DNA from: Arthrobacter sp. H-02-3
GTDB lineage: Bacteria; Actinomycetota; Actinomycetes; Actinomycetales; Micrococcaceae
Assembly (NCBI RefSeq): GCF_003097355.1
Contig: NZ_PYUI01000005.1
Span: 1 to 64,000, forward strand
Direction: 5' to 3'
DNA: 64,000 nucleotides
The first letter of the stretch is position 1. Each line of letters begins with the position of its first letter. Under the pieces are notes generated by a model. It searched no databases and was not told the origin of the DNA. It worked only from the letters and a program-made list of their open reading frames with translations. Shown in pieces: positions 22 to 47,775 of the stretch. The translations under genes and the position numbers were made by a program.

Positions 22-41
22 CGCCGCGGTTTCTAGCCCGG

Positions 42-3037: not shown

Positions 3038-3069
3038 GGGTTAAATGTATCGGTTCGCGCGATCGCTTT

Positions 3070-3638: not shown

Positions 3639-3732
3639 CCTCCTCGGCGCCTTATGGCGGTTGTCGACCGACCGCATGCCACCGGTCCACGACGGTTCCT
3701 GGGCTTTCTGTCCAGTTAGTCTTCGAGCGCAG

Positions 3733-5175: not shown

Positions 5176-5366
5176 AGTCCCCCATCTCAGGATTCGAACG
5201 CGCAAACCTCTCTTTCAGACCGATGCTAGACCAGGGCACCGACGGAATGACCGCGACGCCCGGAGACCTCACAGTGAGTGCCGAGCGAGACTATGTGAGG
5301 TCCGGCCATAGACGACACTGTTCGGGAACCGGCCGGCGATGGGCGAAGCTATGGCATCCTCAAAAC

Positions 5367-5975
5367 ATGAACGCACCGGACCAAACAGCCCAAGTCCTCG
5401 GTCTGCAGGCGTGGGAGACACTTCGAGGATCCCACGCCGCCTACATGTCAGGCACATCGCCGACATACGACGAGGTCCTCACAGAGGTCGCCGACCGAAT
5501 CCGCGCGACGGCCAGCATCGGAAAGGCCGACATCGGGGCTTTACTGTTCTGGAAGCGCCTCCGTGCGGATACACCCTGGGTCCGCGAACTGATGGTCAAG
5601 CCCGAAACGGAAGTCAGGGAGATAACGGAGAAGGCCGTGTCTGCCGTCACCGATATGTCACTACCCGTGCCCAAGGCCGCTTCTGCTGGCCGGGCGGCGC
5701 TCTCACCGCTTCCTGGCTTCAAAACGGGAGACGCACTCGCTTCAGCCCTTCTGCTGGCCGCCGCTCCCGAACGAATGGCGGTATACGACGAGCGCGCCCA
5801 AACCGGACTGGAGGCCCTAGGTCTCTCACTCTCCCCTGCGCGCGGGAGGTACGGACGCTACATGGAGCTGGTCGAAGAAATGCGGTCAACGGCAGGCCGA
5901 TACGGGCACACTTGGTCCGCGAGGGATGTCGATACCGCACTCTTCTGGCTCGGCGGTCCGAAATCACAGCCATAA
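5367..5975 (+). CDS. Hypothetical protein, island gene
   Basis: A 202-residue soluble protein, mostly helical by composition, with no signal peptide or recognisable catalytic motif. It ends in a YGHTW-SARDVDTALFWL stretch that resembles the end of a compact helical domain. ATG 5367 is used because the in-frame sequence before it is not coding-like. The flanking gene at 3733-5175 is divergent, and the membrane-anchored gene at 6135 follows on the same strand after about 160 bp. I do not recognise the family. Confidence 0.6.
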   Translation: MNAPDQTAQVLGLQAWETLRGSHAAYMSGTSPTYDEVLTEVADRIRATASIGKADIGALLFWKRLRADTPWVRELMVKPETEVREITEKAVSAVTDMSLPVPKAASAGRAALSPLPGFKTGDALASALLLAAAPERMAVYDERAQTGLEALGLSLSPARGRYGRYMELVEEMRSTAGRYGHTWSARDVDTALFWLGGPKSQP

Positions 5976-6134
5976 AGCGTGCCGGGGGCACTCCAGTCCA
6001 GCACCGCAGCGCGCCAGTTCCATGGGTCAAAAATTAGACCGATATGCTGGCTTGACACAGCGTGGCACAGATAGTCGGCAGCGTTTTCCCATAAAGAGTC
6101 GCCCTGGGCTCGCGAGTCAAGGAGAGTCGGAGAC

Positions 6135-6971
6135 GTGGCCGAAAAGTCTTGGGTTGATTTTGCCCAGTTCACCCTTAACCTTTTCCTTGCAATAGTCACT
6201 GTCTCCTTGTTCATCCAAGGAACGAGAGACAGGCGACGGATAGCTGAGGACCGCAGACGCGAACAAGCGTCCAAGATCAGCGTCCACCGGTTTGACCGAA
6301 CGGAGCAGACGAGGCCTGATTCCTGGCGCGTGCTCGGCACGCGTGTCGAGATCCGCAATGACTCGGATGCTTCCATTTCGAGAGTCCACGCCGTCCACCT
6401 GACCTTGCCTTGGTGGCACGACTACGTGAACGCTCGCGGTAAGGTTGGCGTCGACCCCCACCAAAGGCAAGCCATACGCTTCGCCGGCCATGCCGAGCCC
6501 GGAGTCAACGACATTTCGATCCCTCCGGGGCAGAACGTTCACTATGACGATGCCCCTCTTTCCGGCCAAACCATCTTGCTGTACTTCACTGACGGGGCAG
6601 GTATTCAGTGGGTCAAGCGAGACGGCCAACTTTGGAGATTCACCACTGACACACACTGGCTAAGTCGCCTGTACCAGTGGATGTATTACAAACGGGGAAC
6701 GCAATGGCTTGTTGGCTGGCTACTTCCCTACGCGCGCCGGCGGTTCAACAATTTGGCACCGACTGTCCCGTTGTCGGCCCGGGTGGCCACGTTTCTTCTG
6801 GGCACGACGCCTGTCCCAGGCGGCGCGAGTGAGCCATGGCTGATGCCGCTCAGGGCTCCGAAGAAGGACTGGCCGTACCAGGAGTGGATCAACGGAATTT
6901 ACCTCGACCGGGCAGGCAACACAGATGCCGCTGCCGAACACGCCAACGCTGGCGAAACGCCTCAACCCTGA
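6135..6971 (+). CDS. Membrane-anchored hypothetical protein
   Basis: A 278-residue protein with one N-terminal transmembrane helix (about residues 10-28), followed by a basic, coiled-coil-like stretch (RDRRRIAEDRRRE) and a mainly beta, Trp-rich domain. The GTG start at 6135 has an AAGGAGAG ribosome-binding site. The topology suggests an inner-membrane protein with a cytoplasmic sensor-like domain, but the family is not recognised. The reading frame continues after its TGA stop for another 95 codons of coding-like sequence (see 6972-7256). Confidence 0.65.
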   Translation: MAEKSWVDFAQFTLNLFLAIVTVSLFIQGTRDRRRIAEDRRREQASKISVHRFDRTEQTRPDSWRVLGTRVEIRNDSDASISRVHAVHLTLPWWHDYVNARGKVGVDPHQRQAIRFAGHAEPGVNDISIPPGQNVHYDDAPLSGQTILLYFTDGAGIQWVKRDGQLWRFTTDTHWLSRLYQWMYYKRGTQWLVGWLLPYARRRFNNLAPTVPLSARVATFLLGTTPVPGGASEPWLMPLRAPKKDWPYQEWINGIYLDRAGNTDAAAEHANAGETPQP

Positions 6972-7256
6972 GGCGGTGCAATCGCTGTAGTCGGCGAATG
7001 GTTCTCCGAGCTGGACCGCCAGCGAACCGGGCTCCTGCCGAACAACGCTCAGCATCTGGCGCGGACGGCAGAACGGCTTATAGAGGATCTGATGAAGGCT
7101 GCGCCAAGGGATTTCAGCGGCGACGAGATCGAGCGCTTCGTGAAGTCCGTGGCCTCCCTACGCCGAATCGACGACATCTCAATTTCGAAGCTGCGCCATC
7201 CCGGGAACGCCCTTCGTTGGGCAAGGCCCGACGGCGCGGGAGCCGCTCCCGAATAG
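6972..7256 (+). CDS. Coding-like continuation in frame after TGA; no standard start codon
   Basis: Directly after the TGA at 6969-6971 the same frame stays open for 95 codons and encodes a plausible soluble helical segment (GEWFSELDRQRTG, then GDEIERFVKSVASLRRIDD), ending with TAG at 7254-7256. The first in-frame ATG is deep inside the segment, and there is no GTG or TTG before it. Options are stop-codon readthrough, a recent nonsense mutation splitting a 373-residue ancestor, or a separate gene with a rare start such as ATC 6981, which has GAGGCGG upstream. It converges on the minus-strand gene ending at 7419. Confidence 0.4.
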   Translation, partial: GGAIAVVGEWFSELDRQRTGLLPNNAQHLARTAERLIEDLMKAAPRDFSGDEIERFVKSVASLRRIDDISISKLRHPGNALRWARPDGAGAAPE

Positions 7257-7418
7257 CCAAGCCTAGCCCCTAGTCGGCCACCGGCGACGGCCCCGAGATG
7301 GAGTGCGTGCATGACCACCACGGGCAGCCAGGCCCGATAATTCACCCACCCCATCACACAAACCAGCACCCAGACCGGCAACCAGCCACACACCCTCAAC
7401 CCATCGGTGGATCGAGGC

Positions 7419-8222
7419 TTAGGGCTCCCGACCCTCGTCATCGCCATCTATCGATGCCTCTTCGGGGAAGCTCCTTGCGATTCTCTCAAAGTGCGCCATC
7501 CCTTTCGGCTGAAGGATCTCTCCCGCTGCCTGGCAATCCTTGGCCGCTCTCTTGGCGACTTCGACCGCTGAGGTGAGACGATCCTCTTGAGATAGCGACT
7601 CGTCTTTTCGTTGTTCGTCGGGCTCCAGGCCGTACTGCTCCAGCAAGGACCTCAGGAACTGACTCTCATCATCCGTGATGTGACTGGCCGCAGTGAACCA
7701 CCCCGCTTCGTTTTCGGTTGTCAGGGAGACAGCTTTCTGGATCAGGATTCGTGTTGTACGGGCAGCCTCGCGTTCAAGCTCCAAGGCTGCTGTGAGGAGG
7801 GCCTTGACGTCGCCCGTCGCGGCGTCCATCGTTGGCTCCGCATCGCCGAAGTTTCGGAAAAATGACCATTCTGGTTGCTCGGGATCGAGTCTTTCCAGGG
7901 CCCGACGAATAGGTTCGAATCCTTCGAATGGACGCTTGCTACCCGGGTACTCGCGGCGGTGAGCCCAGAGGTTTAGGATCTCTCGGGCACAGCGCTCTTG
8001 CGCCTCTCGTTTACATGAACTTTCGGCTGCCTCAGCCCCCGCTATCAGTTCCGCCACATAGTAAGCCATCCATCGGCCGAGAGTGTCGGTACTTTCGAGT
8101 TCCGCGGCAAGCTTCTTACCAAGCGCGACTGTTTGGACATAATTCGGTCCATCCGAAGCGGGGTCGGTAGACAAATATCTTGAAGTACTCATCCAGATAG
8201 CCCAATCCTCGGTCGACGACAT
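7419..8222 (-). CDS. Helical partner protein of the Cap4-STAND operon
   Basis: A 267-residue, acidic, strongly helical protein with no membrane segment or catalytic motif that I recognise. Start ATG 8222 is chosen because GGGAGA lies 8 nt upstream; ATG 8192 is an alternative. It overlaps the 3' end of the giant STAND gene by 107 nt, an unusually long overlap that implies coupled translation. A role as regulator, adaptor or chaperone of the STAND protein is inferred from the overlap alone. It is the last gene of a three-gene minus-strand operon. Confidence 0.65.
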   Translation of the reverse strand: MSSTEDWAIWMSTSRYLSTDPASDGPNYVQTVALGKKLAAELESTDTLGRWMAYYVAELIAGAEAAESSCKREAQERCAREILNLWAHRREYPGSKRPFEGFEPIRRALERLDPEQPEWSFFRNFGDAEPTMDAATGDVKALLTAALELEREAARTTRILIQKAVSLTTENEAGWFTAASHITDDESQFLRSLLEQYGLEPDEQRKDESLSQEDRLTSAVEVAKRAAKDCQAAGEILQPKGMAHFERIARSFPEEASIDGDDEGREP

Positions 8223-11200
8223 CGGTTCGTCTCCCAGAATAATCGAATGCTTTTCGATCAATGGTGACTTCGGCGACGAGATCCATCTTAAGCTCGTCGA
8301 GCAAGGCATCGAGGGACTCCGAATTTATTTGAACACGAATTCCTTGACTCCCTATGCTGCGTCCGCGCCCCTGCGGGAGCAGATCGTCCCAAGCCGACAC
8401 AGCGAACACGGGCTCGCTCAGTGCGGCTGACGGGAGCCAAAACCTCATATCAGGATCGGGTGTCAGATTGAGTACTGCCTGGACCTTCGCCGATGGTCGC
8501 GGTGGTGGATACCGCATTCCCGAGCCAAAAGGATCCCCCTCATCCATTCCATTCCTTCCTGAGTCGGCTACGATCCACCCCCGGAGCATGTAGCCCGCCA
8601 CGTCAATCTCGAGCTCATCCCCAGCATCCGGAATTCTGAAGTCAGTGGGGCTGCTTGCTGTCTGAAGAGCAGCCATAAGAGCAAACGAGCGACTAGGGTC
8701 GACCAGTGCGGTCCTGACCGTAGCTTCCTGCCGCCGGCGACTGTCATCCCGGGATGAGTCCTCCCAGACCGTGAAGAATCCGCTCTCGTCCGGAGTGACA
8801 ATGCGGAAGAAATCGCTAGGAGCCACCTTCCACCGCCAAATCGGATCGTCGGTTTCTGGCAAATCGAGGTGAGCTATCTTGGGCTCCGGATCGCGGCGGT
8901 CCGAAAGCCACCGACCGTCAGTTCTGGTCAGCGTGCTTGGTTCAAGCCACAAGGAAAATTCGTCGCGGTCATTTGACGGATCCTGGTACGACGGCCTGCT
9001 CGTAGCAAGCACGCCCGCTACCTCAAATAGCGAGTGAAAGGAGAGGTATGCATTGAGGTCCTTAATCTTGGGACGCTGCCCTCTGTAGGTGTGAGTCTCG
9101 TCTGGCTTGAAAATTTTCCGCGTCCAACGTTCGTCTTCCTCATGGGTTCCATGGAACTGTCCCTCCCACTGCTCCCGGATTATTGCAGCGGCCTCTTTTT
9201 CGACGTCGAGTGCGTCAAGACCAAAGCAGTCTGCAAGTGGCGCCATCCAGTTGTCTCGGAAGTCAAAGTCAAAATCGTAGCCGACATCATTCTGCTCGTA
9301 CCGCGATCTCTTGAAGCGGGTCCGCTCGTGGTATTCGAGGACTAGTGGATCCGGTCTGAGGGTCCCTATCCGTGCGAAGCGTTGCGCGTCCTGCTCGCCA
9401 AAAGCCGACAGCTGCTCTGCGTGCAGCTTCTTGACGATGGAGTCGACTCGGTCTCGTATCAGGATGTGTCGTGTCGCGCTTTCGATGAGGTTGGACAGTA
9501 ACGGCACGAAGTCCATCACTCGGCTAGCATCCGCAGTCGCCGCACGGTCGAGAGCGATCAGGAGCCAGAGAAGTGCGTCGTTGGCGTAGAAGACGAGACC
9601 ATTGTCTACGAACGCACCGGCTTTCTCTGATGTCGCAAATTTTGCAAGGGCATTGAGTTCGCTATGCGCTTGCACCTCACAGAGCATTCGGACAACGTGC
9701 GCGGCCCGCCAGCGCATATCTTCGTCGGGATCGCCTAGCGCCGCCCAGACATAGCCCGCTATACATTCACTGAGTGAAGTTGGAGGGGTCAGGCCTGCAG
9801 TCCATGGACCGTCAGCTGTCTGGGGCTCCACCAGATACTGGATGTGATCAATCGCGTCGTCCAGAACTAGGGTTGAATCCTCCTTCGATAATTGGCGAAC
9901 AAGCTTGGCCAGCAGCGCGAAACAGGCGGACGAATCGAGAAAGTCCCCTCTGGAGCCCAGCTCCTTGAAGGCCAAATTCAGCAGGTCAGATTGCGCCACT
10001 CCAGCGACACTTTCAATCGACTCCCAGGGGAGCTCCTGCCATCCTCGTGTGGCTATTTCTTCACTAAACCGGACGACAGAATGCCTTGCAAGATCGCCGC
10101 AAGCGTTGAGGAAGCCGGCGGGTGGCGACGCCAGCCTTGCCGCGAATTCAAAGAAGGACACGTAGTCAGAGATGCCAAAGCCGACACACTCACCAAACGC
10201 TTTGGCGATCCTGGACCAATCTCGACGAGGCTGTTTGAAGGCCACGCGAAGCAGGGCACCTCGCTGGTCGTAGGGTCCGGACCGCTCTTTCTGCCGGCCG
10301 ATCTCCATGTGTTCGACCAAGGTGAAGTCTAGGTTAGCCAAAGAGACTTCAATAGACTCGGAACTTGCAGGGTCTATGCGAGGTCCACCAAACCAGTCCC
10401 CGGAGCGGCGCTCGGATTGCGACTGGAACTTTGGGGGTTCATATATTCCACAAGGAAACCCGTTCCTCTTCGCCACAGCAACGAGTTGCTCGCTTTGTTC
10501 AGGGCGATTTCCTTGCATTCTGCAGAGGTCAAACGCAACGCGAAGAATCGTTTCGGTCGACTCCTTTTGAGAGAGGACTGCGCGCTCGACCAGAGGCTCG
10601 ATTGTAATTCGATCGTGAAAGGGACCGAACGCGAGAGATGGCAGGGGCGCTTGCCTAAGCCCACCGACTTCTGGATCAAGAAGCCCCCTAATAACTTCCG
10701 AGAACACGCCAAAATGTCGGTCTCGCCACCGCGACGCAATGGCGATCGACGAGCGGGCGCTGAGTGCAGCCACGGCTTTGATTGTTTCTTGATAGCCGAA
10801 ACCATCACCCATGTAGGGCTCGACTGCTTCAGCGAGCTGCGCGACTTTGTACGCCCGTTCGTCATCGTCTCCCCCTGGACCTGCTTGATGAGCTACGGCC
10901 AACATCGCGTCCCAGCGGTCTCTAATTTCATCCCCTACCTTGTCGGCAAGTGCCAACGCTGCATCAAAGTAGTGCTGCGACTCTTCTGGGCTTATGGAAT
11001 GAAGTGCCCGGGTTAGCTGGATCAATGAGTCAGTTCGGTCTTGAGTATCCTCCCGAGTCGCCACAATTTGCTCATAGGCTGAGTGCCCCAGCGAGAACGC
11101 AACTTGATCCATCTCGGGGATCGAAGCCATTAGACGGATCAAGGCATTAGTGGTCGACCACCAAAGCTCCGTGGCAACGGTCTCGTACCAGGCACGGAGC

Positions 11201-14200
11201 GTCTCATGGCTGTCATCTGAATTCGTTGTCAGGCCGAGAAGCCAGGCACATAACTTGGCTGCCTCATTCAGGAAAACCTTGGGCTCTTCGTCATCCCTCC
11301 TTTGTGGTTTGGGCAGCATTCCTAGGAGCTGCTGAAGTTCGGCATCGGCGTTGGCTGCAGGGTCGCAGGATACTCGCGCCCAGGCCAGCATCCAAGGGAC
11401 CAAAGGAGCTATATTCTGTCGATATCCGCGCCCTTCCTGTGTGGAGGCGTGGGTCTTTCCTTTCAGTTCCTCAAGGAGTTCGGGACCCGCAAGCTGGGCA
11501 TCTGTCAGATCTCCTCCAGTCAGGTACGTCCTGATTGCCCACGCCTTGAGTACGGTAGCTGAGGTGTGATGATGAAACCGCGAACCGAGCGCCTTGGGTG
11601 GACCGGCTGGCAGGTATTTGGACAAAATTGCAGATGCTCTGTCCTTTGAAATCAGGCCGTGCCTGAGGCAGGTAGCAATGGCTCCACAGATGGCAGCGAG
11701 CCCGTCGTCTTCCTGATCCAACCGCGATGTCTGGCTGAGCTCGATCTTGTTCCGGTGGTGGCGGAGAGTTTTCATAACCACCAGGGACGCATCCCTATCG
11801 AGTTGTGCATTCTGGCGAGTGGCCTGGGCTGTGATCGCCAACTGCAGATACTTGCTGGAACCCGAAGCTTTAAGTAAATCGTTGAGTCGTACGATTTCAC
11901 CTCGGGCGATGAGTCGGCTCGCGATCAATGTGCCCACGTCAAAGGCCGTAGTGGGTGGACGCCATCGGCTCAGGAATTCGGCGCAGGCCTCAGGACCATC
12001 GACGTTTAATCGCCCCATAGCCAGTTCGGCGATGTCTTCATGGCCAACCCTATGGTCTCGCTGTCTGTCAGATGGGAGCCGGATCCATCCATACATCCAT
12101 TCGAAAGCACTTCTTAGCCTGTTGCGGGCGTCGAGACGGCTGGACTCAGATACCGACATGAGAGCGCCCTCATATGCCAGATTGGATCCCGGCCAGTCTG
12201 AGCCGAGCGATCGGCTGGCCACCAGGTCCTCGATGGTTTGCGGATCTAGGAACTCTCCTGCGAGATCTGTGTTCTCCCTGATCAGCTTGAGACGGCGGGA
12301 ATGGCCTGCTGCCAGGGTCCCGGCTTTGAGTGCGAGTCTGGATGCCTCTAGAGTCCGTTCCGTTCGAAGGGCGGCCTTCAGGGCAAACTGCACGCGTTGC
12401 TGCTGGATCTCTTGGCGTTCTACGTCATTCGACTTCGGCAGGGCCTCCTCCGAGAGAGCTAGATGGACGAGTTCGTCGAAGCTTCCCGCCTCCCATAGCA
12501 GTTGGGGAAGGGAAGTCGCGGCGTAAGCGTTCTGTTCAGCCAGCAAGCGGAGCCCTGCGACTAGTGAGGTGAGTGCTTCGCCTGTCGCCCTGAAGTTGTT
12601 GCGGAACCACGTTTCAGTTGGTTCATCTCTGAATTGCACAGCATCGCCCAGTAGCAATAGCGGCCGACCTATGTCGCTGACAAAGCTCGAGACGAGCGAT
12701 GAGGAGGCCCCGCTGAGAGCAGCAATTACCGGCGTCGGTATGCGCGGGCGCAGAGTCGCAAGGACCCGGGACATCAGGTCTAAGGTTCCCGCGTCCTGCC
12801 CGGCGTCGTCACGAATGTGGGCGAACCACTTGTCGAGCAGGCTTTCGAAAGCGGACTCGGGTGATAGGTAACGCTCGCCAAGGATCGACAGTGAGTCTGT
12901 GACGGTTTGCGCGTCGCTCAGGACTTGGGCCTGCACTCTGGGGTTTCCCGACGTCCGTTTGTGGAATTCCCGGGCGTCGGCCTCCGGTACAGGGCCAAAC
13001 TTCAATTCGACGTGGTTTTTGGACTCCTCTTCATTCAGGCCAGATATGGGCAGCTGGATTGTGGTGGACGGAGAATTCAGCAGATGGATCCGTTCCGTCC
13101 TGCACAGCATGACCAGCCGCACGTTTGGCGGCAGGTCTTCCCGCAGGAGATCGACTGGAAACGGGTGTCCTGAGTTGAAATCCTCCGCGGCCATCACTGC
13201 GTTATCGGCGGCGTCGACAACCAGTACGAGTAGACCGGATGGGGTTGTCTTAGCTAAAAGGGTTGCGGCTGTGCCGACGCGCGCCAGAAACGCACGAGAG
13301 TAATCGCTCGCGGTTGCTCTGGCACTTTGGAACAGAGGCTGGCAGAGGCCGAGAGTTGCCAGTTCGTTAGCCATCTGGACTAGCCCCTGGCGATGCTCGT
13401 GACGTGGCTCACTGGACTTGCGGTAGGCTCCCAGTCCGTAGCAGTCGTAGGTGATTTTGACTGAGCCGCTGGGAAGATAATTACCGAGCTGTTGCGCAAA
13501 GACAGACTTCCCGACCCCGCCGGAAGCATGGACTATGACGGGTTGCGGAGCCTCGCTGATCCTTTCGGCCAACTCGGAGTACTGCGCCCTGCTGAAGATC
13601 GTCGCGGGAGTTACCAGCCGCGAAGGTGCTGGAAGAAAGCCATCCTCGGTCGTTCCTAGAGCGACGAGTACGTCGGCCCTGGTGATGGTGGACTTATCCA
13701 AGGTTGTGGCGCGCTTGGTGATGGCTTCTTTTAGTTTGAGGACGGCCTCGGGGTCGCTTCCGGGCAAATATGACGCAACATCATGTTCGAACTCTGCAAC
13801 CAGCGGTAGTAGGGAAGGGGCGGTGGTGTCGACCACGAATGCGCTACAGAACTGTGCCTCTAGGTCGGCGTCTTCCAAGGCCAGGTATCTACGAAGGAGT
13901 GCGACTTCGTCGCGGTCATCAGGATGTACAGTTCTTGACGCGACGTCGCTGAGCGCCTGCAATACTCGCGTATGTACGCTCCGGTTAGAGACGAATTCAA
14001 ATCTTGCCGACGTGGCCTGCGACGGTTGAAGCTCGTGGAGTTTCTTAAAGCGAGCCGCGAAGCCTTTGAGGGTTTTGCTGAGACCGTACATGGTCCAAGG
14101 CTCGTCCTGCTGAGCGGTCGAATGTTTCAGTTGTCGATAGACAACACGTCCGCCTGCCATTAGATCTTCCGAAATCAAGTACTCCGCGACGTCCACGACG

Positions 14201-14376
14201 TGCTCTCCGGCGGTCAACGTGCTCTGACCTTCAAGCTCATGTCTGGAAGGGCCCTCTATCGCTATTGACACGATGTTGGTGCCGGGACTCAGGAGCTCCA
14301 AACAGCGCCGTGCGGCCCAGTAGTAGTGGAATTGGTCCCCGTCCCTGCTAGTTCGAACGACGTCTGGGGTTGTCAT
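8116..14376 (-). CDS. Cap4-like nuclease / STAND ATPase, Avs-like antiphage protein
   Basis: A 2086-residue protein. Residues about 10-120 resemble the Cap4/DUF4297 dsDNA endonuclease domain: GDQFHYYW, Glu41, Asp62 and the QLK signature (Gln82, Lys84) of a PD-(D/E)xK site. A STAND-type ATPase follows, with Walker A HASGGVGKS at about 283-291 and Walker B LLVLVVDAADNA at about 382-393. Roughly 1500 residues of helical, repeat-like sequence then form the presumed sensor. This order (nuclease, STAND, long sensor) is that of Avs defence proteins, which bind phage proteins and cut DNA. ATG 14376 has GGAG upstream and overlaps the previous stop as ATGA. The phage ligand is unknown. Confidence 0.8.
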   Translation of the reverse strand: MTTPDVVRTSRDGDQFHYYWAARRCLELLSPGTNIVSIAIEGPSRHELEGQSTLTAGEHVVDVAEYLISEDLMAGGRVVYRQLKHSTAQQDEPWTMYGLSKTLKGFAARFKKLHELQPSQATSARFEFVSNRSVHTRVLQALSDVASRTVHPDDRDEVALLRRYLALEDADLEAQFCSAFVVDTTAPSLLPLVAEFEHDVASYLPGSDPEAVLKLKEAITKRATTLDKSTITRADVLVALGTTEDGFLPAPSRLVTPATIFSRAQYSELAERISEAPQPVIVHASGGVGKSVFAQQLGNYLPSGSVKITYDCYGLGAYRKSSEPRHEHRQGLVQMANELATLGLCQPLFQSARATASDYSRAFLARVGTAATLLAKTTPSGLLVLVVDAADNAVMAAEDFNSGHPFPVDLLREDLPPNVRLVMLCRTERIHLLNSPSTTIQLPISGLNEEESKNHVELKFGPVPEADAREFHKRTSGNPRVQAQVLSDAQTVTDSLSILGERYLSPESAFESLLDKWFAHIRDDAGQDAGTLDLMSRVLATLRPRIPTPVIAALSGASSSLVSSFVSDIGRPLLLLGDAVQFRDEPTETWFRNNFRATGEALTSLVAGLRLLAEQNAYAATSLPQLLWEAGSFDELVHLALSEEALPKSNDVERQEIQQQRVQFALKAALRTERTLEASRLALKAGTLAAGHSRRLKLIRENTDLAGEFLDPQTIEDLVASRSLGSDWPGSNLAYEGALMSVSESSRLDARNRLRSAFEWMYGWIRLPSDRQRDHRVGHEDIAELAMGRLNVDGPEACAEFLSRWRPPTTAFDVGTLIASRLIARGEIVRLNDLLKASGSSKYLQLAITAQATRQNAQLDRDASLVVMKTLRHHRNKIELSQTSRLDQEDDGLAAICGAIATCLRHGLISKDRASAILSKYLPAGPPKALGSRFHHHTSATVLKAWAIRTYLTGGDLTDAQLAGPELLEELKGKTHASTQEGRGYRQNIAPLVPWMLAWARVSCDPAANADAELQQLLGMLPKPQRRDDEEPKVFLNEAAKLCAWLLGLTTNSDDSHETLRAWYETVATELWWSTTNALIRLMASIPEMDQVAFSLGHSAYEQIVATREDTQDRTDSLIQLTRALHSISPEESQHYFDAALALADKVGDEIRDRWDAMLAVAHQAGPGGDDDERAYKVAQLAEAVEPYMGDGFGYQETIKAVAALSARSSIAIASRWRDRHFGVFSEVIRGLLDPEVGGLRQAPLPSLAFGPFHDRITIEPLVERAVLSQKESTETILRVAFDLCRMQGNRPEQSEQLVAVAKRNGFPCGIYEPPKFQSQSERRSGDWFGGPRIDPASSESIEVSLANLDFTLVEHMEIGRQKERSGPYDQRGALLRVAFKQPRRDWSRIAKAFGECVGFGISDYVSFFEFAARLASPPAGFLNACGDLARHSVVRFSEEIATRGWQELPWESIESVAGVAQSDLLNLAFKELGSRGDFLDSSACFALLAKLVRQLSKEDSTLVLDDAIDHIQYLVEPQTADGPWTAGLTPPTSLSECIAGYVWAALGDPDEDMRWRAAHVVRMLCEVQAHSELNALAKFATSEKAGAFVDNGLVFYANDALLWLLIALDRAATADASRVMDFVPLLSNLIESATRHILIRDRVDSIVKKLHAEQLSAFGEQDAQRFARIGTLRPDPLVLEYHERTRFKRSRYEQNDVGYDFDFDFRDNWMAPLADCFGLDALDVEKEAAAIIREQWEGQFHGTHEEDERWTRKIFKPDETHTYRGQRPKIKDLNAYLSFHSLFEVAGVLATSRPSYQDPSNDRDEFSLWLEPSTLTRTDGRWLSDRRDPEPKIAHLDLPETDDPIWRWKVAPSDFFRIVTPDESGFFTVWEDSSRDDSRRRQEATVRTALVDPSRSFALMAALQTASSPTDFRIPDAGDELEIDVAGYMLRGWIVADSGRNGMDEGDPFGSGMRYPPPRPSAKVQAVLNLTPDPDMRFWLPSAALSEPVFAVSAWDDLLPQGRGRSIGSQGIRVQINSESLDALLDELKMDLVAEVTIDRKAFDYSGRRTDVVDRGLGYLDEYFKIFVYRPRFGWTELCPNSRAW

Positions 14377-14798
14377 GCTTGCTCCACCCAGTCCAGTACG
14401 TTGGTGAGTCGCTCGGCATTTGGAGGGTCGCTGCGGACGTCGGCTTGCAAGGCGTCGTAGGTGTAGCAAGCGACAAGTTGCGAAACAACCCTTTGCGCAG
14501 ATGGGTTTCCCACCCAAGCCCGGGCGAACGTGGCCATGTAATGGACGTTGCGCGCGGAGAATCCGCGCACTTTCGGGAACTCGTTTCGCGGGCCATCAGC
14601 CAGTCTCCTGATGACGCCGCTCCACCATCCTGGGCGTTCCTGCCGGGTAGCGACGTCGTGCCCGGCGGACCAGAACAGGTCGACGGGCTGCGTGTCAACT
14701 GTCCGACGTGTCGTGCGGGCGGCAAGGACGCGGTTCTTGGACTCGCCGGTGAGGGTGGTGTGGTGCGTGCGGAAGGCGAGCTCGCGAACAGCTGTCAT
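14373..14798 (-). CDS. Orphan DUF1016 N-terminal (YhcG-like) domain protein
   Basis: A 141-residue protein matching the DUF1016 N-terminal domain (RQERPGWWSGVIRRLA, then FPKVRGFSARNVHYMATFARAW). Full YhcG-family proteins are about 340-370 residues and carry a PD-(D/E)xK nuclease after this domain; here the sequence ends about 45 residues later with no nuclease motif. The ATG at 14798 has AGGA upstream; ATG 14816 is possible. Its TGA overlaps the ATG of the Cap4-STAND gene as ATGA, so the two are translationally coupled. In YhcG proteins this domain is linked to DNA recognition; a sensing or toxin-control role here is inferred. Confidence 0.7.
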   Translation of the reverse strand: MTAVRELAFRTHHTTLTGESKNRVLAARTTRRTVDTQPVDLFWSAGHDVATRQERPGWWSGVIRRLADGPRNEFPKVRGFSARNVHYMATFARAWVGNPSAQRVVSQLVACYTYDALQADVRSDPPNAERLTNVLDWVEQA

Positions 14799-15102
14799 GC
14801 GTTCGATCCTATCCATCGGAGCCGGGCCCGTACGGTATGACGCCGCGCCCCTGACCACCGCGATCCTGCAGTCCTAGTCCCAGCGGGTGGAAATGTTGGC
14901 GGGAAGCGAACATGCGCTAGCTGAGGGTCGGCCGCGAACAATAGGTCTTCGGCTACGGCATCGCAGAAGCCGGCTTCCTCCCTGCCCCACCTCGACTGAG
15001 GCATGTGGAGGCGTGGGCGGCTGACACCTCATTCGAACCCCCATCTCCCGTGGACGTCCGGGCTGGCTGCGCCGAGGCCCGGAGCGCCGCACACAGGGGT
15101 GT
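14799..15102. other. Intergenic region, no clear feature
   Basis: About 300 bp between the start of the defence operon and the next possible gene. It should contain the operon promoter, but I cannot point to a convincing -35/-10 pair. No repeat or RNA gene is evident. Confidence 0.4.
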
Positions 15103-15357
15103 ATGACCAATTCTCGTGGCGGCACCCGGCTCCGCATTCTCGCATCCTCGTTCCAGAGCTTCCTCATCAAGACTCTGCTCTACGGCTTCGCCAAGGTGAA
15201 CCCCCAAGCAGCCGATTCCAACGAACGGAACCCCCCTCGCCTAGTCCAATTCCTGGGCGTCCTTCGGTCCAGCGTCACATCCTACGTCTCGTCGGATCAG
15301 ATGGCGCGTGACGTCATCCACGTCGCCATTGACCTCATAATTGCCCTGATTCATTGA
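15103..15357 (+). CDS. Possible small hypothetical protein
   Basis: An 84-codon frame starting at ATG with AGGGG just upstream and ending at TGA. Third positions are clearly GC-enriched, and the product has a hydrophobic C-terminal segment (VIHVAIDLIIALIH) that could bind a membrane. No family is recognised. It could be a real small gene, a remnant, or chance coding at the island edge. Confidence 0.3.
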   Translation: MTNSRGGTRLRILASSFQSFLIKTLLYGFAKVNPQAADSNERNPPRLVQFLGVLRSSVTSYVSSDQMARDVIHVAIDLIIALIH

Positions 15358-15411
15358 TTCTGTCGTGTGCGCCAGACCGGGGCCGAGGGTGCCTCGGCCA
15401 ACACGCGTCCC

Positions 15412-15666
15412 TTACGTTTTGATTCTGCACACTTGGGCTCCGCCCGCATTCCGTCGCAGGTTTTGAGACACCAAGGGTGCAGACACGCCGTTTGCAAGAA
15501 CAATCATCGTTGCCATTCCTGCCTGCGCCGAGAGCGGCCTCCTGCGTCCGTTCGGCTGAACGGGAACAACCAAACTGGCGCCGGGATAGATTTCGTACAC
15601 CTCGGCAACCCCATCTTCCCCGCTGTCTATGCGTTTCGCAGCGGGAGTGTCCTGATTGACTGACAT
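15412..15666 (-). CDS. Truncated exported protein (signal-peptide remnant)
   Basis: An 84-residue product beginning with a polar N-region, then RRRPLS and a hydrophobic core (AQAGMATMIVLANGVSAP) that looks like a late signal sequence. It stops about 25 residues after this core with no mature domain. Similar long N-regions occur in actinobacterial secreted cell-wall hydrolases, so this may be the 5' remnant of such a gene. ATG 15666 has a GGAAGGAAAG ribosome-binding site. A small intact protein cannot be excluded. Confidence 0.45.
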   Translation of the reverse strand: MSVNQDTPAAKRIDSGEDGVAEVYEIYPGASLVVPVQPNGRRRPLSAQAGMATMIVLANGVSAPLVSQNLRRNAGGAQVCRIKT

Positions 15667-15780
15667 CTGCTTTCCTTCCACGGGACACCGGCAGGATCGC
15701 CGGCTGATTCGACTCTCCCGGCTTGGGCACGGCGCGGTAAGCCACGAAGTCCGCTAAGTGGAAAACATGCCCGCAACCGG
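15667..15780 (-). promoter_or_regulatory. Structured 5' leader, possible riboswitch, type unassigned
   Basis: The leader of the 84-residue exported protein is rich in short inverted repeats. The clearest is CCGGC/GCCGG with a 6-nt loop, about 10 nt before the ribosome-binding site. Secreted cell-wall hydrolases in actinobacteria often follow c-di-AMP (ydaO-type) riboswitches, but I cannot match the conserved core of that class here, so only a structured leader is claimed. Confidence 0.3.
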
Positions 15781-16003
15781 CGCCACGGCGGCCTGTGGAG
15801 GAGAACTCACGGGCTGTTCCACGCCGGCGGACGGACGGCACGACAGCGCCCCGCTCATGCCTTGGCCCGACGAAGTACCCGCCTGACCCGACTAACGGCC
15901 ACTCCTGACCGGGCGCAGAACTGAACCCGAGGTGCTGCGGTCCATACTGCGACTACAGCTTCTCGGGTTCAGTTCGGTGCGCTGGAACCTCAATAACGCG
16001 CTT
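15781..16003. other. Intergenic region, nothing recognised
   Basis: About 220 bp between the leader of the truncated exported protein and the stop of the LamG-like gene. It presumably holds the promoter for the minus-strand leader. I see no gene or terminator with confidence. Confidence 0.35.
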
Positions 16004-38902: not shown

Positions 38903-40726
38903 ATGGCCAAGCAGACTTCATTCTTCACCTCCATCAGCCGTCTCTACCCGCACGTCAGGCCGATACTGCCCCGGCTGGTCATGGGTCTGCTCTCGGCGCT
39001 GCTGGCGAGCCTGATGGCACTGGCCATCCCCCAGGTGCTGCGCGTGCTGGTCAACGAATCCCTCAAGCCCGGCGGCAGCGCGGAAGCCGTGTGGACCGCC
39101 TCGCTCGTGATCCTGCTCCTGGGCATCGCCGAGGCCGGTCTCGTAGCCCTGCGCCGCCAGTTCGTCATCAACCCTGCCACCACCGTGGAGACCCGGATGC
39201 GGGTCTCCCTGTACGGGCATCTGCAGGACCTCACGGTGTCCTTCCACGACCGCTGGGGCTCCGGGCAGCTGCTCTCCCGCGCCATGACGGACCTGAATTT
39301 CCTGCGCCGCTGGATGGCCTTCGGGGCCATCATGCTGGTGGTCACCACGCTCACCGTGGTGATCGGCGTCGCGGTGATGTTCTCAATGAGCTGGCAGCTG
39401 GCCCTGATCTTCCTGGCCGCCGCCGTGCCGATCATGATCTACGGATTCCGTTTCCGCACCCGGTTCAGCAAGGTGGCCCGCCGCAGCCAGGACCAGGCCG
39501 GGGACCTTGCCACGACGGTCGAAGAATCCGTGCACGGCATCCGAGTGCTGAAGGCCTTCGGCCGCAGCCAAGAGGCGCTGGAGAACTTCAACGAGCAGGC
39601 CCAGGAGCTCCGGCAGACCGAGATTGCCAAGGCCAAACACCTGGCGACCTTCAGCCTTGTCGTGACGCTGCTGCCCGAGCTCGCCCTCGGCGCCGGGCTG
39701 GTCGTCGGCATCATGCTCGCCTCCACGGACCAGCTCTCCATCGGGTCCCTCGTGGCCTTCTTCGCCACCGCCGCTGTCGTGGCCGCGCCGGTCGAGTTCT
39801 GCGGCATGCTGCTGGCCATGGCCCTCACCGCGAAGTCGGCGGTGGACCGGCACTTCGAGGTCATGGACGCGCGGAACACGATCACCAGCCCGGACAAGCC
39901 GCGCCGGCCGGCTGAGCTGAAGGGTGCCCTAAGCTTCCACGATGCCTCGTTCGCGTTCGAGGACGCCCCGGACAAGCCGATCCTCAAGAACATCAGCCTG
40001 GACATCCGGCCCGGGGAGACCATGGCCTTGGTCGGCATCACAGGCAGCGGGAAGAGCGCCCTGCTCCAACTGGTCCCCCGCCTCTACGAGGTCACCGGCG
40101 GCGCCATCACGATCGACGGCGTGGATCTGCGCGAGTTCAGCGTGGAGGATCTGCGCACCGTCGTTGCCGTGGCGTTCGAAGACACCACGTTGTTCTCCAG
40201 TTCCGTCCGCGACAACGTCCTGCTCGGAGCGCCCGACGCCGGCCCGGCGGACAGCCGCGACGCCGCCCTGGAGGAAGCCCTCGACGTCGCCCAGGCCCAC
40301 TTCGCCTATTCGCTGCCGGACGGGGTGGACACCCTGATCGGCGAGGAAGGCCTGAGCCTCTCCGGCGGCCAGCGCCAGCGCATCGCCCTGGCCCGTGCCA
40401 TCGCAGCGAAACCGGCCGTGCTGGTCCTGGACGACCCGCTCTCGGCACTCGATGTGAACACCGAGGTCCTCGTTGAGGCCAGGCTCCGCGAAGTCCTCGC
40501 GGACACCACCACGCTGATCGTGGCCCACCGGCCCTCCACGGTGGCGCTGGCCGACCGCGTGGCTCTGCTCGAGGACGGCCGGATCACCGCCGTCGGAACC
40601 CACACGGAGCTGCTCGCCACCAACAGTCACTACCGCTACGTGATCGCCAGCCTGGACACGGAACCGCGGGACCTGGATTCAGAACTGTCCGCCTTCGAGG
40701 ACCGGTCCGAGGAGATTTCCCGATGA
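38903..40726 (+). CDS. ABC exporter half-transporter, subunit with degenerate ATP site
   Basis: A 607-residue fused permease-ATPase: six transmembrane helices (about 20-310) and a nucleotide-binding domain (about 340-590). Walker A is GITGSGKSA and the signature LSGGQ is intact, but the Walker B glutamate is Asp ([11 protein letters not shown]) and the Q-loop Gln is Glu (AFEDTTLF). That is the pattern of the non-hydrolysing partner in heterodimeric exporters such as TmrAB. Its TGA overlaps the ATG of the next gene. The substrate (drug, lipid or peptide) is unknown. Confidence 0.9.
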
Positions 40727-42588
40727 GCAGCGCAACATTCGGCACCGCCAACGAGGACAACGCGCACCTCACCAGGACCGAGAGCAAGGCCGTCCGGCGG
40801 CGCTCCCTGGCCCTGCTGGGTTCCCTGATCCGCCCCGTCCGGGCGCGTTTCTGGCTGACAATCGGCGCCGTCGTCCTGTCCCAGGCAGCCCGCGTGGCCG
40901 GGCCGGCGCTGATAGCCTTCGGAATCGACCACGCGCTCCCGGCCCTGCGGGCCGGCAACAGCCTGCCCCTCGCGTTTGCCGGCGTCGCGTACCTGGCCGC
41001 TGCCGCCGCTACGGCGGGCCTGACCGCCCTCTACGTCACGTCGACAGCCAGGCTCAGCCAGGCGATGCTGCTGGATCTTCGCGTCCGGGTCTTCCGCCAC
41101 ACGCAGCGGCTGAGCCTGGAATTCCACGAGAAATACACCTCCGGCCGGATCATCGCCCGGCAGACCTCGGACCTGGAAGCCCTGCGCGAACTGCTGGACT
41201 CCGGCGTGAGCTCGCTGGCCTCGGGACTGCTGTTCATGGCGTTCACGGCCATCACGGTGTTCGCCCTGGACTGGCGCACCGGCGTCCTGGTGCTGGCCGC
41301 GGGCGTACCCATGTACTTCCTGGCCCGCTGGTACCAGAAGCATTCCCAGATCGCCTTCCGCGAATCCCGGGTGGTCTCGGCCCGGCTGATCGTGCACTTC
41401 GTGGAAACCATGACCGGCATCCGCGCGGTGAAGGCATTCCGCAAGGAACGCGAGAATGCCGCGCGCTACGCCGAACTCTCCGAGGACTACCGGCGCGCAA
41501 CCGTCCGCTCCATCAACCTCAACGGCATCTTCCAGCCCGGGCTGGTGCTGATCGGCAATGTCTGCGTCGCCGTCGTACTGCTCACGGGCGGGTTCCGGGT
41601 CCTCAGCGGCGAGCTCGCGGTGGGCGTGCTCCTGGCCCTGATCCTGTCCACCAAGCGCTTCTTCCAGCCGGTGGACCAGATGGCCATGTTCTACAACTCC
41701 TTCCAAAGCGCCCAGGCGGCCCTGGAAAAGGTCTCGGGCCTGCTTGAGGAAATCCCCACCGTCCGGCCGCCGCAGACGCCCGTGGCCCTGCCCTACGCGC
41801 GCGGCAGTATCGACTTCAACGGCGTCGAATTCCGCTACGGCGACGGCCCGGTGATCATCCCGAGGCTGGACCTGCACATCCCCGCCGGCCAGACGGTCGC
41901 GCTCGTCGGGCAGACCGGCGCCGGCAAGTCCACCTTGGCGAAGCTGATCGCCCGCTTCTACGACGTCTCCGCCGGATCCGTCACGCTCGACGGCGTGGAC
42001 CTGCGCCAGCTCACCACCGAAGACCTGCGCCGCAACGTCGTCATGGTCACCCAGGAGGCCTTCCTGTTCAGCGGCTCCGTCGCGGACAACATCGCCCTGG
42101 GCCGGCCCGAGGCGTCCCGTGAGGAGATCGAGGACGCCGCCCGGGCCGTGGGGGCACACGCCTTCATCACGGAACTTCCGGACGGCTACGACACGGACGT
42201 CAACAAGCGAGGCGGCCGCGTCTCCGCCGGACAGCGCCAGCTGATCAGCTTCGCCCGGGCGTTCCTGGCCCGCCCGGCGGTCCTGATCCTGGACGAGGCA
42301 ACCTCGTCGCTGGACATCCCGTCGGAACGCATGGTCCAGCAGGGCCTCGCCGGCCTGCTGCGCGGCACGAGGGAGGCCGGCACGCGGGATACCAACCCGG
42401 CCGGGACGCACGGCGCCGGGCGGACCGCGCTCATCATCGCCCACCGGCTCTCCACAGTGGAGACGGCGGACCGGGTCCTGGTGGTGCACGACGGGCGCGT
42501 CGTCGAAGACGGCACGCCCGGGCAGCTGATCGGCGACGGCGGCGCCTTCGCCCGGCTCCACGGCGCCTGGAAAGACTCCCTGGTCTGA
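40723..42588 (+). CDS. ABC exporter half-transporter, catalytic subunit
   Basis: A 621-residue partner of the preceding subunit, coupled by an ATGA overlap. It has six transmembrane helices followed by a nucleotide-binding domain with Walker [11 protein letters not shown]-loop VTQEAFLF, Walker [12 protein letters not shown] and switch His (IIAHRLST), all canonical. Its signature is changed to VSAGQ. Together the pair makes one consensus ATP site (this subunit's Walker motifs with LSGGQ of the partner) and one degenerate site. A short Gly/Thr-rich insertion precedes the switch region. Confidence 0.9.
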
Positions 42589-42763: not shown

Positions 42764-42840
42764 CGGGATGTGGCGCAGCTTGGTAGCGCGCGTCGTTCGG
42801 GACGACGAGGTCGCAGGTTCAAATCCTGTCATCCCGACCA
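42764..42840 (+). tRNA. tRNA-Pro (CGG)
   Basis: The full cloverleaf is visible. The acceptor stem CGGGATG pairs with CATCCCG, the D-arm has GCGCAGCTTGGTAGCGC, the anticodon stem CGTCG/CGACG encloses the loop TTCGGGA with anticodon CGG, and the T-arm has GGTTCAAATCC. CCA is encoded at 42838-42840. A terminator follows directly, so it is an independent unit. Confidence 0.97.
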
Positions 42841-43053: not shown

Positions 43054-43272
43054 TTACATCGGGTCGGGCCAGTTGCCGACGTTGAGCGAGTGGGTCATGG
43101 GATCGGGCCAGTTGCCGACCGCCTGGGCCGTGCGCATGGGATCCGGCCAGTTGCCGACCGCGGCAACGTGTGAGACATCGGTAAGTGAAGCAGCGGACAG
43201 CACGGCCGGAGCCGCGGCGGAGAATGCCAGTGCGCCCGCCAGAACGGCGCCGGCTGCAATCTTCTTCAACAT
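43054..43272 (-). CDS. Secreted propeptide with three VGNWPDPM repeats, candidate signalling peptide
   Basis: A 72-residue product. A Sec signal peptide (LKKIAAGAVLAGALAF core, cleavage near APA or LSA at about residues 22-27) is followed by about 45 residues containing VGNWPDPM three times with a 13-residue period; spacers are RTAQA and THSLN. The last repeat ends exactly at the stop codon. There is no other domain and no cysteine. Tandem short peptides behind a signal sequence, next to a divergent XRE-TPR regulator, fit a propheromone of RRNPP type. ATG 43272 is used; ATG 43284 would only extend the signal peptide. A small structural or antimicrobial peptide is an alternative. Confidence 0.75.
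   Translation of the reverse strand: MLKKIAAGAVLAGALAFSAAAPAVLSAASLTDVSHVAAVGNWPDPMRTAQAVGNWPDPMTHSLNVGNWPDPM
43057..43158 (-). repeat. Three 24-bp coding repeats, 39-bp period
   Basis: Copies at 43057-43080, 43096-43119 and 43135-43158 each encode VGNWPDPM. They differ only at third codon positions of Pro5, Asp6 and Pro7, so all changes between copies are silent. Spacers differ in both bases and residues. Confidence 0.9.
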
Positions 43273-43402
43273 AGAGTTCCTCAATAAGAGTCGGGGTCCT
43301 TAACCAAGTCAGCACTACCCTTGTTGACACACATTGTAAAATGGTTTCCACAGAGACTGTCAAGCATTTAGTACAAAGAATGTCCGGAATTAGGAGGTGT
43401 CC
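43273..43402. promoter_or_regulatory. Divergent promoter region between peptide and receptor genes
   Basis: This 130-bp region is AT-rich compared with its surroundings. On the minus strand, TTGACA (43363-43358) is followed after 17 bp by TTTACA (43340-43335), or after 19 bp by TACAAT, a good promoter for the peptide gene. On the plus strand another TTGACA lies at 43324-43329, without an obvious -10 at normal spacing. The two TTGACA/TGTCAA boxes form an inverted repeat with 28 bp between arms, which could also be the regulator's operator. AGGAGG at 43392-43397 serves the regulator. Confidence 0.55.
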
Positions 43403-44668
43403 GTGGGGAACGGATTTGGGGAGAAGCTCCGCGCGGAACGGCTCGAACGGGGCCTGACGCAAGCGGAACTGGGCCGTGACCTGTACTCCCCCAGCTATAT
43501 CTCACTACTGGAAACCGGACGCCGCGAGCCCACTGCCGATGTCATCGAAGAGCTTGCGCGCCGGCTCGAACTTGCCCCCAAAGCGCTCGAAGCCTGGAGC
43601 CAGCCGGTGTCCGTCAGCGACGCCGAATATGTGCTCGCGGGACTCTACGCCCGGCAGGCCTGGGACCTCCGCGACTACCCCGTGGCCGCCACCCACGCCG
43701 CCGCCGCCGCCAAGATCGCCCTGGAAGCCAAGAACACCAGCGCCTGGTGGAACATGACCTACATGCAGGCCGAGTGCCTGATCAAGCAGGGCCTCTGGCA
43801 GGAGTGCAAGGACGTCGTCCGGAATCTCCTGGAGCACCCGATGGCCGCGGAATCGGCCGGGCTCGGCGTCCGCGCCCAACAGATGCTCGCCGCCGCCTCG
43901 CAGGGGCAGGGCCAATTGACGGCCGCCGTCGAACATGCGCAGGAAGCGGTGCGCCTCTGCGCCCAGCTGCCCAAGGGCTCCACGATGATTATCGGCGCGC
44001 TGCGGGCGCTCATCGGCGCCCTGGCCGAGAGCGGCCGGCTGGATGAGGCCTGGGAGTACTGCCAGGCCATGAACGACCAGATGGATGACCACTCCATGTC
44101 CCAGCTCGCCGGCGAGGTGGCCTGGGTGATCGGCAACGTGGCATTCATGCGCCACGACTACGCCGAGGGCATCAAATACCACGAGCGTGCCGGCCGGCTG
44201 CTCTCCCCGGCGAACGATATCGACTTGTGGGCCCGGTTCAACAAGGCCTCGGCGGCGGTCCGGCTCTCCTCGGGGATCGTCGAACCCGAAACCCTGTCCT
44301 CGATCGAACGCGCCGAACTGGCCCTCTCGATTGTGGGCGGCAACAAGACCGACCAGCTGGAAGTCGCTTTTATCCGGGCCCGCTGGCTCTACCTCACCGG
44401 GGACATCGTGGCGGCCGTCCAGAAGCTGCGCGAGATCCACGCGGAGCGCGAGTCGCTGGCCCGACACACGGCCGGCGAAGTTTCACTGCTGCTGGGGAAG
44501 GCCCTCAAGGCCGCCGGGGAATCCGCCGAGGCCCTGGTCTACCTCGAGGAAGCCCAGAAGGAATTCAGCGCGGCGGGAGCCTCGGACCGGGTCCAGCAGG
44601 CGTTGGATGCCGTGCTCGAGATCCGGCTCGCCCAGCGGCGCGCGGAGGCAGCGTCGGCCGAAGCCTAG
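43403..44668 (+). CDS. XRE-family regulator with TPR domain, candidate peptide receptor (RRNPP-like)
   Basis: A 421-residue protein. Residues about 6-58 form a Cro/C1-type helix-turn-helix (RGLTQAELGRDLYSPSYISLLETGRREP). The remaining 350 residues are helical with repeated TPR-like pairs (YARQAWDLRDYPVAATHAAA, ALIGALAESGRLDEAWEYCQ, VAFMRHDYAEGIKYHERAG, EVSLLLGKALKAAGESAEAL). This is the architecture of PlcR, NprR and PrgX, which bind imported short peptides in the TPR groove. GTG 43403 is preferred because AGGAGG lies 5 nt upstream; GTG 43397 lies too close. It is divergent from the repeat-peptide gene. Other XRE-TPR proteins are not peptide receptors, so this role is inferred. Confidence 0.85.
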   Translation: MGNGFGEKLRAERLERGLTQAELGRDLYSPSYISLLETGRREPTADVIEELARRLELAPKALEAWSQPVSVSDAEYVLAGLYARQAWDLRDYPVAATHAAAAAKIALEAKNTSAWWNMTYMQAECLIKQGLWQECKDVVRNLLEHPMAAESAGLGVRAQQMLAAASQGQGQLTAAVEHAQEAVRLCAQLPKGSTMIIGALRALIGALAESGRLDEAWEYCQAMNDQMDDHSMSQLAGEVAWVIGNVAFMRHDYAEGIKYHERAGRLLSPANDIDLWARFNKASAAVRLSSGIVEPETLSSIERAELALSIVGGNKTDQLEVAFIRARWLYLTGDIVAAVQKLREIHAERESLARHTAGEVSLLLGKALKAAGESAEALVYLEEAQKEFSAAGASDRVQQALDAVLEIRLAQRRAEAASAEA

Positions 44669-47107: not shown

Positions 47108-47775
47108 GCTGGACATGCTCAATCTTCCGCCCGGGAGATGCCCGGACATGCCCCGGCACCGCGTAATCCGTGGGACATGCCCAGTCCCGGCCGCAGCCAC
47201 TGGACACAATGCCACCATGTCCGCTCCCGGATACCAGGGCTGGACATGTCCCCCGGGCCAAGGAGCATGTCCAGTCCCCGGGACGCGGCCACGGAGCATG
47301 TCCATTCGCTGCCGAGGGGCGGCGGAGCGTGCCCTTCCGCCAGGCATGACATCACTCCTCGGCCCGCGATCTTGCCCGGAAACTCCCCCGGACATGCCCA
47401 CTCCCAGGGACGCGGCCAATGAGCATATCCATTCGCTGCCGAAGGGCCGCGGAAGATGCCCTTCCGCTAGCCAAGTGGCCGCGGTACATGCCCTTCCGCC
47501 AGGCACGACATCACTCCTCGGCCCGCGATCTTGCCCAGAAACTCCCCCGGACGTGCCCGGTCCTGGCCGCGGCCACTGGACATAATGCCGCCATGTCCGC
47601 TGCTGGATCCCGTGGCTGGACATGTCCTCCGGGCCAAGGAGCATGTCCATTCCCCGGCACGCGGCCCAGGAGCAGGTCCATTCCCCGGGACACGGCCACG
47701 GAGCATGTCCATTCGCTGCCGGGTGGCCGCGGAGCATGTCCTTTCGTCGGGTCGCCGGGGAGCATGTCCACTCGC
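47108..47775. repeat. Array 3 of GGACATG-type palindromic elements
   Basis: About twenty elements related to GGACATGTCC in both orientations (GGACATGCCC and GGAGCATGTCC forms) fill the divergent gap between purD and the molybdopterin oxidoreductase. Centres lie at about 47114, 47147, 47176, 47216, 47245, 47266, 47297, 47328, 47393, 47424, 47455, 47487, 47552, 47592, 47621, 47642, 47673, 47704, 47735 and 47763. Spacings are mostly 28-33, with 21, 40 and 65. Larger duplications with offsets of about 159 and 376 bp show how it grew. Confidence 0.8.

Follow-up and report, generated by a model that had tools for sequence, protein, structure and literature searches.

A candidate RRNPP-like peptide-pheromone cassette in Arthrobacter sp. 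H-02-3: a triple VGNWPDPM propeptide divergent from a helix-turn-helix receptor

The propeptide gene, the receptor gene and the region between them

The stretch of DNA analysed here, termed the window, comprises positions 1 to 64,000 (64,000 nucleotides) of contig NZ_PYUI01000005.1 of Arthrobacter sp. H-02-3 (RefSeq assembly GCF_003097355.1). Between positions 43,054 and 44,668, a small gene, the product of which is predicted to be exported and carries the octapeptide VGNWPDPM three times, is divergent from the gene of a regulator, which combines a helix-turn-helix (HTH) domain with a tetratricopeptide repeat (TPR) superhelix. In the first-pass annotation, made from the letters alone, the pair was read as a signalling cassette resembling the RRNPP quorum-sensing systems. 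This reading is supported by the conserved pairing, by a peptide core that tracks the clade and the paralogue of the receptor, and by the build of the receptor model. The features of the locus are as follows.

43054..43272, minus strand: propeptide gene, 72 aa (ATG 43272, stop 43054-43056)
43192..43272, minus strand: predicted Sec signal peptide, about residues 1-27 (sequence and rough rule)
43135..43158, minus strand: repeat 1, VGNWPDPM, residues 39-46 (sequence)
43096..43119, minus strand: repeat 2, VGNWPDPM, residues 52-59 (sequence)
43057..43080, minus strand: repeat 3, VGNWPDPM, residues 65-72, the C-terminus (sequence)
43324..43363, no strand assigned: TTGACA-N28-TGTCAA enclosing GTAAAAT and CCACAG, a possible operator or pair of overlapping divergent promoters (conservation, inverted repeat)
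43392..43397, plus strand: AGGAGG, probable ribosome-binding site for the receptor gene (sequence)
43403..44668, plus strand: HTH-TPR receptor gene, 421 aa (start GTG 43403, alternative GTG 43397)
43415..43594, plus strand: N-terminal helix-turn-helix domain, HTH_31/HTH_3 (Pfam, above cut-off)
43607..44647, plus strand: superhelix of some eight TPR-like helix pairs, with conserved W115, W116, W241, N245 and W276 (model, conservation)

For the propeptide, ATG 43272 is the more likely start, and the in-frame TTG 43284 upstream of it would give an alternative form of 76 aa. The N-terminus of the 72-aa product is hydrophobic and lysine-led, and the export signal was called by eye and by a rough rule considering charge, a hydrophobic stretch and an A-x-A-like site. 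Pfam and NCBIfam scans of this product gave no family above cut-off, and a search of 5.8 billion proteins returned 364 homologues at E ≤ 0.1. Among the best 120 of these 364, on which the family statistics rest, the C-terminus is GNWPDPx in 118, and the motif is present in three copies in 65 proteins, four in 29, two in 24, five in one and one in one. The residues following GNWPD are P in 363 and then M in 360 of their 365 repeats, and the spacers are widely varied. It should be noted that the repeats were chosen by a pattern with GNWPD or near forms, so that the near-invariance of GNWPD is partly due to selection; the following two residues lay outside the pattern. A degenerate DNA pattern retrieved 409 motif copies across all loci, and every codon for Gly, Asn, Pro and Asp (four, two, four and two, respectively) is represented among them. 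Consequently, with codons varying and amino acids kept, the copies are not mere DNA duplicates, and the 364 homologues, together with a conserved motif between free spacers, indicate that the repeat-bearing open reading frame (ORF) is more than chance.

The receptor gene most likely starts at GTG 43403, five bases 3' of AGGAGG, which leaves a gap of 130 bp to ATG 43272, in agreement with the divergent arrangement and the distance first described. Behind the HTH, several TPR families were matched in Pfam, each below its own cut-off. The AlphaFold2 (AF2) model, with a predicted local distance difference test (pLDDT) score of 88.2, consists of paired helices and gives a confident prediction of an HTH followed by a TPR superhelix. 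Its fold matches are TPR superhelices including PlcR, NprR and Rap, with the PlcR-PapR-DNA complex as the top RRNPP entry at rank 7; among the families covered by VIA, the eukaryotic LGN comes first. In a profile search of solved chains, the PlcR match was confined to the HTH (residues 6-61, E 2.8e-5). The domain make-up initially proposed for the regulator is thereby borne out, as is the triple repeat with its last copy at the C-terminus.

Conservation of the pair and of its intergenic element

If the two genes form a functional unit, their pairing should be kept in relatives, and a search for WPDP-repeat ORFs beside HTH-TPR genes had been proposed in the first-pass annotation. The receptor is present in all 150 genomes sampled in the genus, although four matches are partial and one of these contains a stop. 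An Arthrobacter humicola record holds a receptor 98.6% identical to that of the window. At the best receptor loci of the genus, the divergent propeptide gene was found in 30 of 30 (L009, which is the window, and L012-L040), with a single motif copy in L019. An exact GNWPDP match occurs in 144 of the 150 genomes, adjacency having been read individually for a minority of them. In the remaining six the gene is likewise in place and encodes GNWPNPM (four genomes, in one of which, G093, it adjoins a receptor fragment), GIWPDPM (one) or GNWPYPV (one). More broadly, 101 of the 103 N-terminally complete receptor matches (E ≤ 1e-60) have the divergent propeptide, the exceptions being L204 and L211; because loci overlap, many of these matches coincide, and the distinct intergenic sequences number 68. 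Since this set was partly recruited via the peptide, 30/30 and 6/6 are the fairer figures for the pairing.

The intergenic region contains an element that is conserved with the pair. TTGAC-x-N28-TGTCAA occurs at exact spacing in 63 of 67 distinct aligned intergenic regions, many of which are from close relatives, with x being A in 62; the inner GTAAA(A)T is nearly fixed across the regions that have the element. It is missing from four regions, among them L101, L203, L165 and L170, of which L170 has TGTCAC at the corresponding position. The element may represent overlapping divergent promoters together with an operator, as judged from its inverted repeat and conservation. When its left 20 bases were searched with at most three mismatches, exactly one site per genome was found in 10 of 10 genomes, always at this pair. 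The lack of further copies in these genomes favours autoregulation and disfavours an obvious regulon; the circuit is most likely autoregulatory, with the pair's own promoter region as the evident target.

How far does the exact peptide core extend? A collection scan gave at least 115 stretches, 80 of which were listed by name. An ORF with at least two GNWPD copies is present in 40 of them, 33 signal-like and seven not; one of the latter (L141, Promicromonospora) was judged to be chance. The 40 without such an ORF, often belonging to different phyla, were dropped as chance, although at least two of these (L092 and L147) adjoin a receptor and had been missed by the ORF rule. The named matches accepted as real come from Arthrobacter, Pseudarthrobacter, Sinomonas and Tersicoccus. 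Class-wide, the two-copy GNWPD pattern was matched in three of 394 genomes, namely the window's own, one congener and G619, whose match was judged to be chance; this sample is poor in close relatives and shows only that the exact core is not widespread, while receptor profiles reach further. A phage or plasmid origin of the receptor was rejected, as tblastn found no relative at E ≤ 1e-10 among 72,556 plasmid records and none at E ≤ 1e-5 among 50,697 phage records, and a receptor scan of viral contigs likewise found no relative of the window's receptor. Seven viral contigs fit the two-copy DNA pattern, none with a receptor relative, and the sole ORF among them with the motif twice (L198) was not accepted as real.

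Peptide cores, receptor branches and neighbouring genes

The peptide core changes with the clade and the paralogue of the receptor, in favour of the signalling idea. Beside HTH-TPR receptors the core is (V/I)GNWPDPM/A in Arthrobacter and AIGNWPDPM in Sinomonas. The Tersicoccus cores are VGNWPDP(S/A/T/F), FVGNWPDAV, ARVGNWPDAS, GPGNWPD and TPAVGNWPDRF, and a few residues follow the last copy in the Sinomonas and Tersicoccus precursors. In L207, from another family of the same order, VGGSWPT is present three times beside a receptor of 27% identity; this precursor is signal-like by eye and was missed by the rough rule.

A second branch of receptors consists of TPR-only paralogues, which align with the receptor only from about residue 65-75 onward and consequently lack the HTH. 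In the window's own genome, such a paralogue (L010) has an adjacent divergent peptide gene of the exported type, with the core VNWWPN followed by STQK. Elsewhere the partner peptides, likewise of the exported type and encoded divergently next to the paralogue, carry VNWWPN (L209), VGWWPH (L208), IGWWPN twice (L210), VGYWPF (L205) and VNNWPG (L206) at the C-terminus, so that five of the six partners end in their own core; those of L205, L206, L208 and L209 have a lone copy. In addition, HTH-less TPR proteins in L064, L109 and L117 are paired with (V/S)GNWPDG/S. The two systems occur together, with different cores, in the window's genome, G002 and G210.

A GGDEF gene adjoins the TPR-only gene in seven of ten loci. 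It is downstream on the same strand in L205, L206, L208, L209, L210 and L161, and lies across the peptide gene, on its other side, in L285. In the other three the available sequence ends near the TPR gene (after 637 bp in L109 and 215 bp in L064) or within it (L117), and a GGDEF string in L064 does not fall in an open frame for a GGDEF protein. The GGDEF calls rest on the motif, Pfam having been applied to the protein of the window's genome alone, which is HAMP-GGDEF-EAL. That protein belongs to a second cassette of this genome (L285 4883-7896, G000 contig 10), comprising a TPR-only gene, an exported-type peptide ending VNWWPNSTQK and the HAMP-GGDEF-EAL gene. Since the TPR-only version keeps an exported-type peptide and adjoins GGDEF, its proposed output would be cyclic di-GMP (c-di-GMP), judging from gene order. 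These paralogues with their own cores, mostly beside a GGDEF gene, and the distant homologues in other actinobacterial families described below, all beyond what the window itself could reveal, show that the first-pass annotation understated the finding.

With profile A2, built from 14 broad receptors, matches at E ≤ 1e-40 were found class-wide in 61 of 296 genomes and 28 of 114 genera. For the 33 distinct loci, a signal-like small ORF within 450 bp was located divergently upstream in 22, upstream in the same direction in five, downstream and convergent in two, and downstream in the same direction in one. Once five loci of the window's family are removed, the divergent arrangement is present in 17 of 28, one of which (L220) is doubtful. 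Eleven of these 17 small ORFs end in Cys-Cys (L222, L247, L249, L251-L258), compared with 14 such ends among all 1090 small ORFs of L217-L258, some of them overlapping. Such an ending is unexpected as a peptide code. WP is present near the end in three loci (DWPWI, NWPKCC and WPGMCC), and SIEWP (same direction) and DIGWP (beyond 450 bp) were noticed by eye. No signal-like small ORF partner was seen in L213, L218, L219, L224, L225, L230 and L246. Distant receptor homologues are also found on plasmids, in records named as Streptomyces, Kitasatospora, Nonomuraea and Streptosporangium. In the case of Streptomyces goshikiensis, the plasmid encodes, downstream of the receptor in the same direction, an annotated hypothetical protein with a signal-like start and a CC end; six other plasmid regions examined showed no clear peptide, L292 having a DIGWP-bearing ORF without a clear signal.

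Around the window's pair lie two adjacent ATP-binding cassette (ABC) genes of exporter type (38903-42588), a tRNA-Pro gene (42764-42840), and purC and purD. No importer, protease or tailoring enzyme gene was seen among the neighbours read, so the earlier statement that an oligopeptide importer and a protease are missing next to the pair holds for this neighbourhood. Ten SBP_bac_5 oligopeptide-binding proteins are encoded elsewhere in the genome, and their link to this peptide is only a candidate one. The ABC genes and purC flank the pair in most Arthrobacter loci; the ABC genes were not seen in more distant ones, purC alone is near the pair in the 58-60% group (L133, L165, L170), and neither is present in Tersicoccus L101 or Arthrobacter L109, L117 and L161. 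Synteny as the sole cause of the pairing was rejected because the flanking genes differ between clades. Elsewhere in the window, on the 5' side of purD, 47173-47774 contains eleven degenerate 27-nt direct repeats within larger duplicated blocks, six of the ten steps being 31 nt. The G+C content of positions 1-16000 is 0.57-0.62, compared with 0.65-0.73 in the remainder, and this part is possibly acquired DNA.

ORFs without a signal peptide that carry one to four IGNWPDPM copies, some with IGWWPN or IGWWPH, also occur in several Arthrobacter genomes (L154 3383-3592, L115 1524-1901, L102 3701-3898, L129 3221-3415, L138 5769-6053, L142 7790-7942 and L179 5490-6020, as well as L278-L282 and L284). 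Their loci contain no receptor relative. In L154, L115, L138 and L142 they adjoin a gene whose product is rich in Val and Pro and apparently exported; this gene was not seen in L102 and L129. The fact that cores of both receptor types can be present in a single such ORF suggests a link of these ORFs to both. The window's genome also has a 34-aa ORF without a signal peptide ending in GPVGNWPDPL (L277 1931-2035, G000 contig 4), which may be chance.

Interpretation and rival explanations

The best explanation, to which we assign a probability of about 0.76, is that the pair is an RRNPP-like peptide-pheromone cassette of Actinobacteria. We infer export, cleavage, re-import, binding and autoregulation from the anatomy of the cassette: the propeptide would be exported and trimmed to a (V/I)GNWPDPM peptide, which would be re-imported by an Opp-type permease and would bind the TPR groove of the receptor, and the peptide-bound regulator would then switch at the shared intergenic element, by activation or by derepression.

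In PlcR/PapR and NprR/NprX, the RRNPP systems of Bacillota, an HTH and TPR receptor is likewise adjacent to a short exported propeptide with a C-terminal active peptide. The window system differs from them in phylum, in its GNWPD(P) core with a conserved Trp-Pro, and in its divergent order with a conserved 40-bp element; the resemblance to PlcR is one of architecture, with a sequence-level match in the HTH alone. The arbitrium system AimR/AimP of phages also joins an HTH-TPR receptor to a short exported peptide, whereas the window system is chromosomal and its receptor has no relative in the phage records and viral contigs scanned. Gamma-butyrolactones, which are small-molecule signals with receptors of another family, share the actinobacterial setting, but the signal here is gene-encoded and apparently a linear peptide. 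Rap/Phr is similar in layout only, with a TPR-only receptor beside a short exported propeptide. It differs in that Rap acts on other proteins, whereas the TPR-only paralogues here mostly adjoin a GGDEF gene. For Rap-Phr, precursors with tandem pheromone copies and pheromones at the C-terminus have been described (PMC11343458). The actinobacterial cell-cell signals named in a second source are cyclic or modified peptides and gamma-butyrolactones (PMC4748050), and a third places peptide quorum sensing of the RRNPP type in Bacillota and the mobile elements of that phylum, actinobacterial signals being typically small molecules (PMC10075063). Our literature search, with preprints and most subscription papers outside it, found no paper on the motif in signalling and no RRNPP-like actinobacterial system; the sole match for 'GNWPD' was influenza neuraminidase, which is irrelevant.

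Could the small protein instead be an exported repeat protein that serves a separate function at the cell surface, in metal handling or as an antimicrobial, while its HTH-TPR neighbour senses something else? Regulators divergent from their targets are common, the short motif contains Trp and Pro, and an element confined to this pair is what a dedicated local regulator would have. However, only the core is conserved, between free spacers and in one to five copies, and one C-terminal copy is enough beside other receptors (L205, L206, L208, L209). Moreover, the core shifts with receptor clade and paralogue, and TPR-only relatives without a DNA-binding domain retain the peptide neighbour. A separate function is improbable. 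Still less likely, with only a slim chance, is a multi-core precursor of a ribosomally synthesized and post-translationally modified peptide (RiPP) or a bacteriocin whose production the regulator controls. A leader followed by tandem identical cores is the layout of some ribosomal peptide precursors, but this leader resembles a Sec signal peptide, the neighbours of the window's pair (ABC exporters, tRNA, purC and purD) include no tailoring enzyme, and these neighbours are missing in several contexts where the pair persists.

A rival that overlaps the pheromone reading retains the same mechanism and supposes that what the cell senses is not population density but its own export and peptide uptake, in a self-sensing or timing switch. 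It is compatible with an element found only in the pair's own intergenic region and with the lack of an importer or effector gene adjoining the HTH-TPR pair. A diffusible, pherotype-like signal is suggested instead by the multi-copy precursors and by the differences in core between species, although the sequence hardly separates this rival from density signalling, and we regard it as possible but rather unlikely. As no second element copy was found in the ten genomes, quorum sensing in the strict sense is no more than a possibility; no wider regulon is seen, and the model does not account for the signal-less ORFs with the same motifs.

A wider proposal, which we consider somewhat better than an even bet, is that Actinobacteria have a large unnoticed class of peptide pheromones, whose exported precursors would have a variable C-terminal x-x-W-P code or a Cys-Cys end, each facing its own HTH-TPR receptor. 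The x-x-W-P set would comprise the Arthrobacter family, a neighbouring family and genomes of Streptomyces-like size, and the Cys-Cys set other families. In the TPR-only branch the peptide would control a GGDEF(-EAL) c-di-GMP enzyme rather than DNA; the signal-less ORFs, in which ligands of the two branches are strung together, would act as internal agonists or as decoys. If this is true, soil Actinobacteria would possess a peptide code that is gene-encoded and unmodified, together with the receptors for it, and their cell-cell signalling would become directly testable, since each predicted pair specifies the synthetic peptide to use. In the TPR-only branch an extracellular peptide would be tied to c-di-GMP, and distant receptor homologues also lie on plasmids of Streptomyces, an antibiotic-producing genus.
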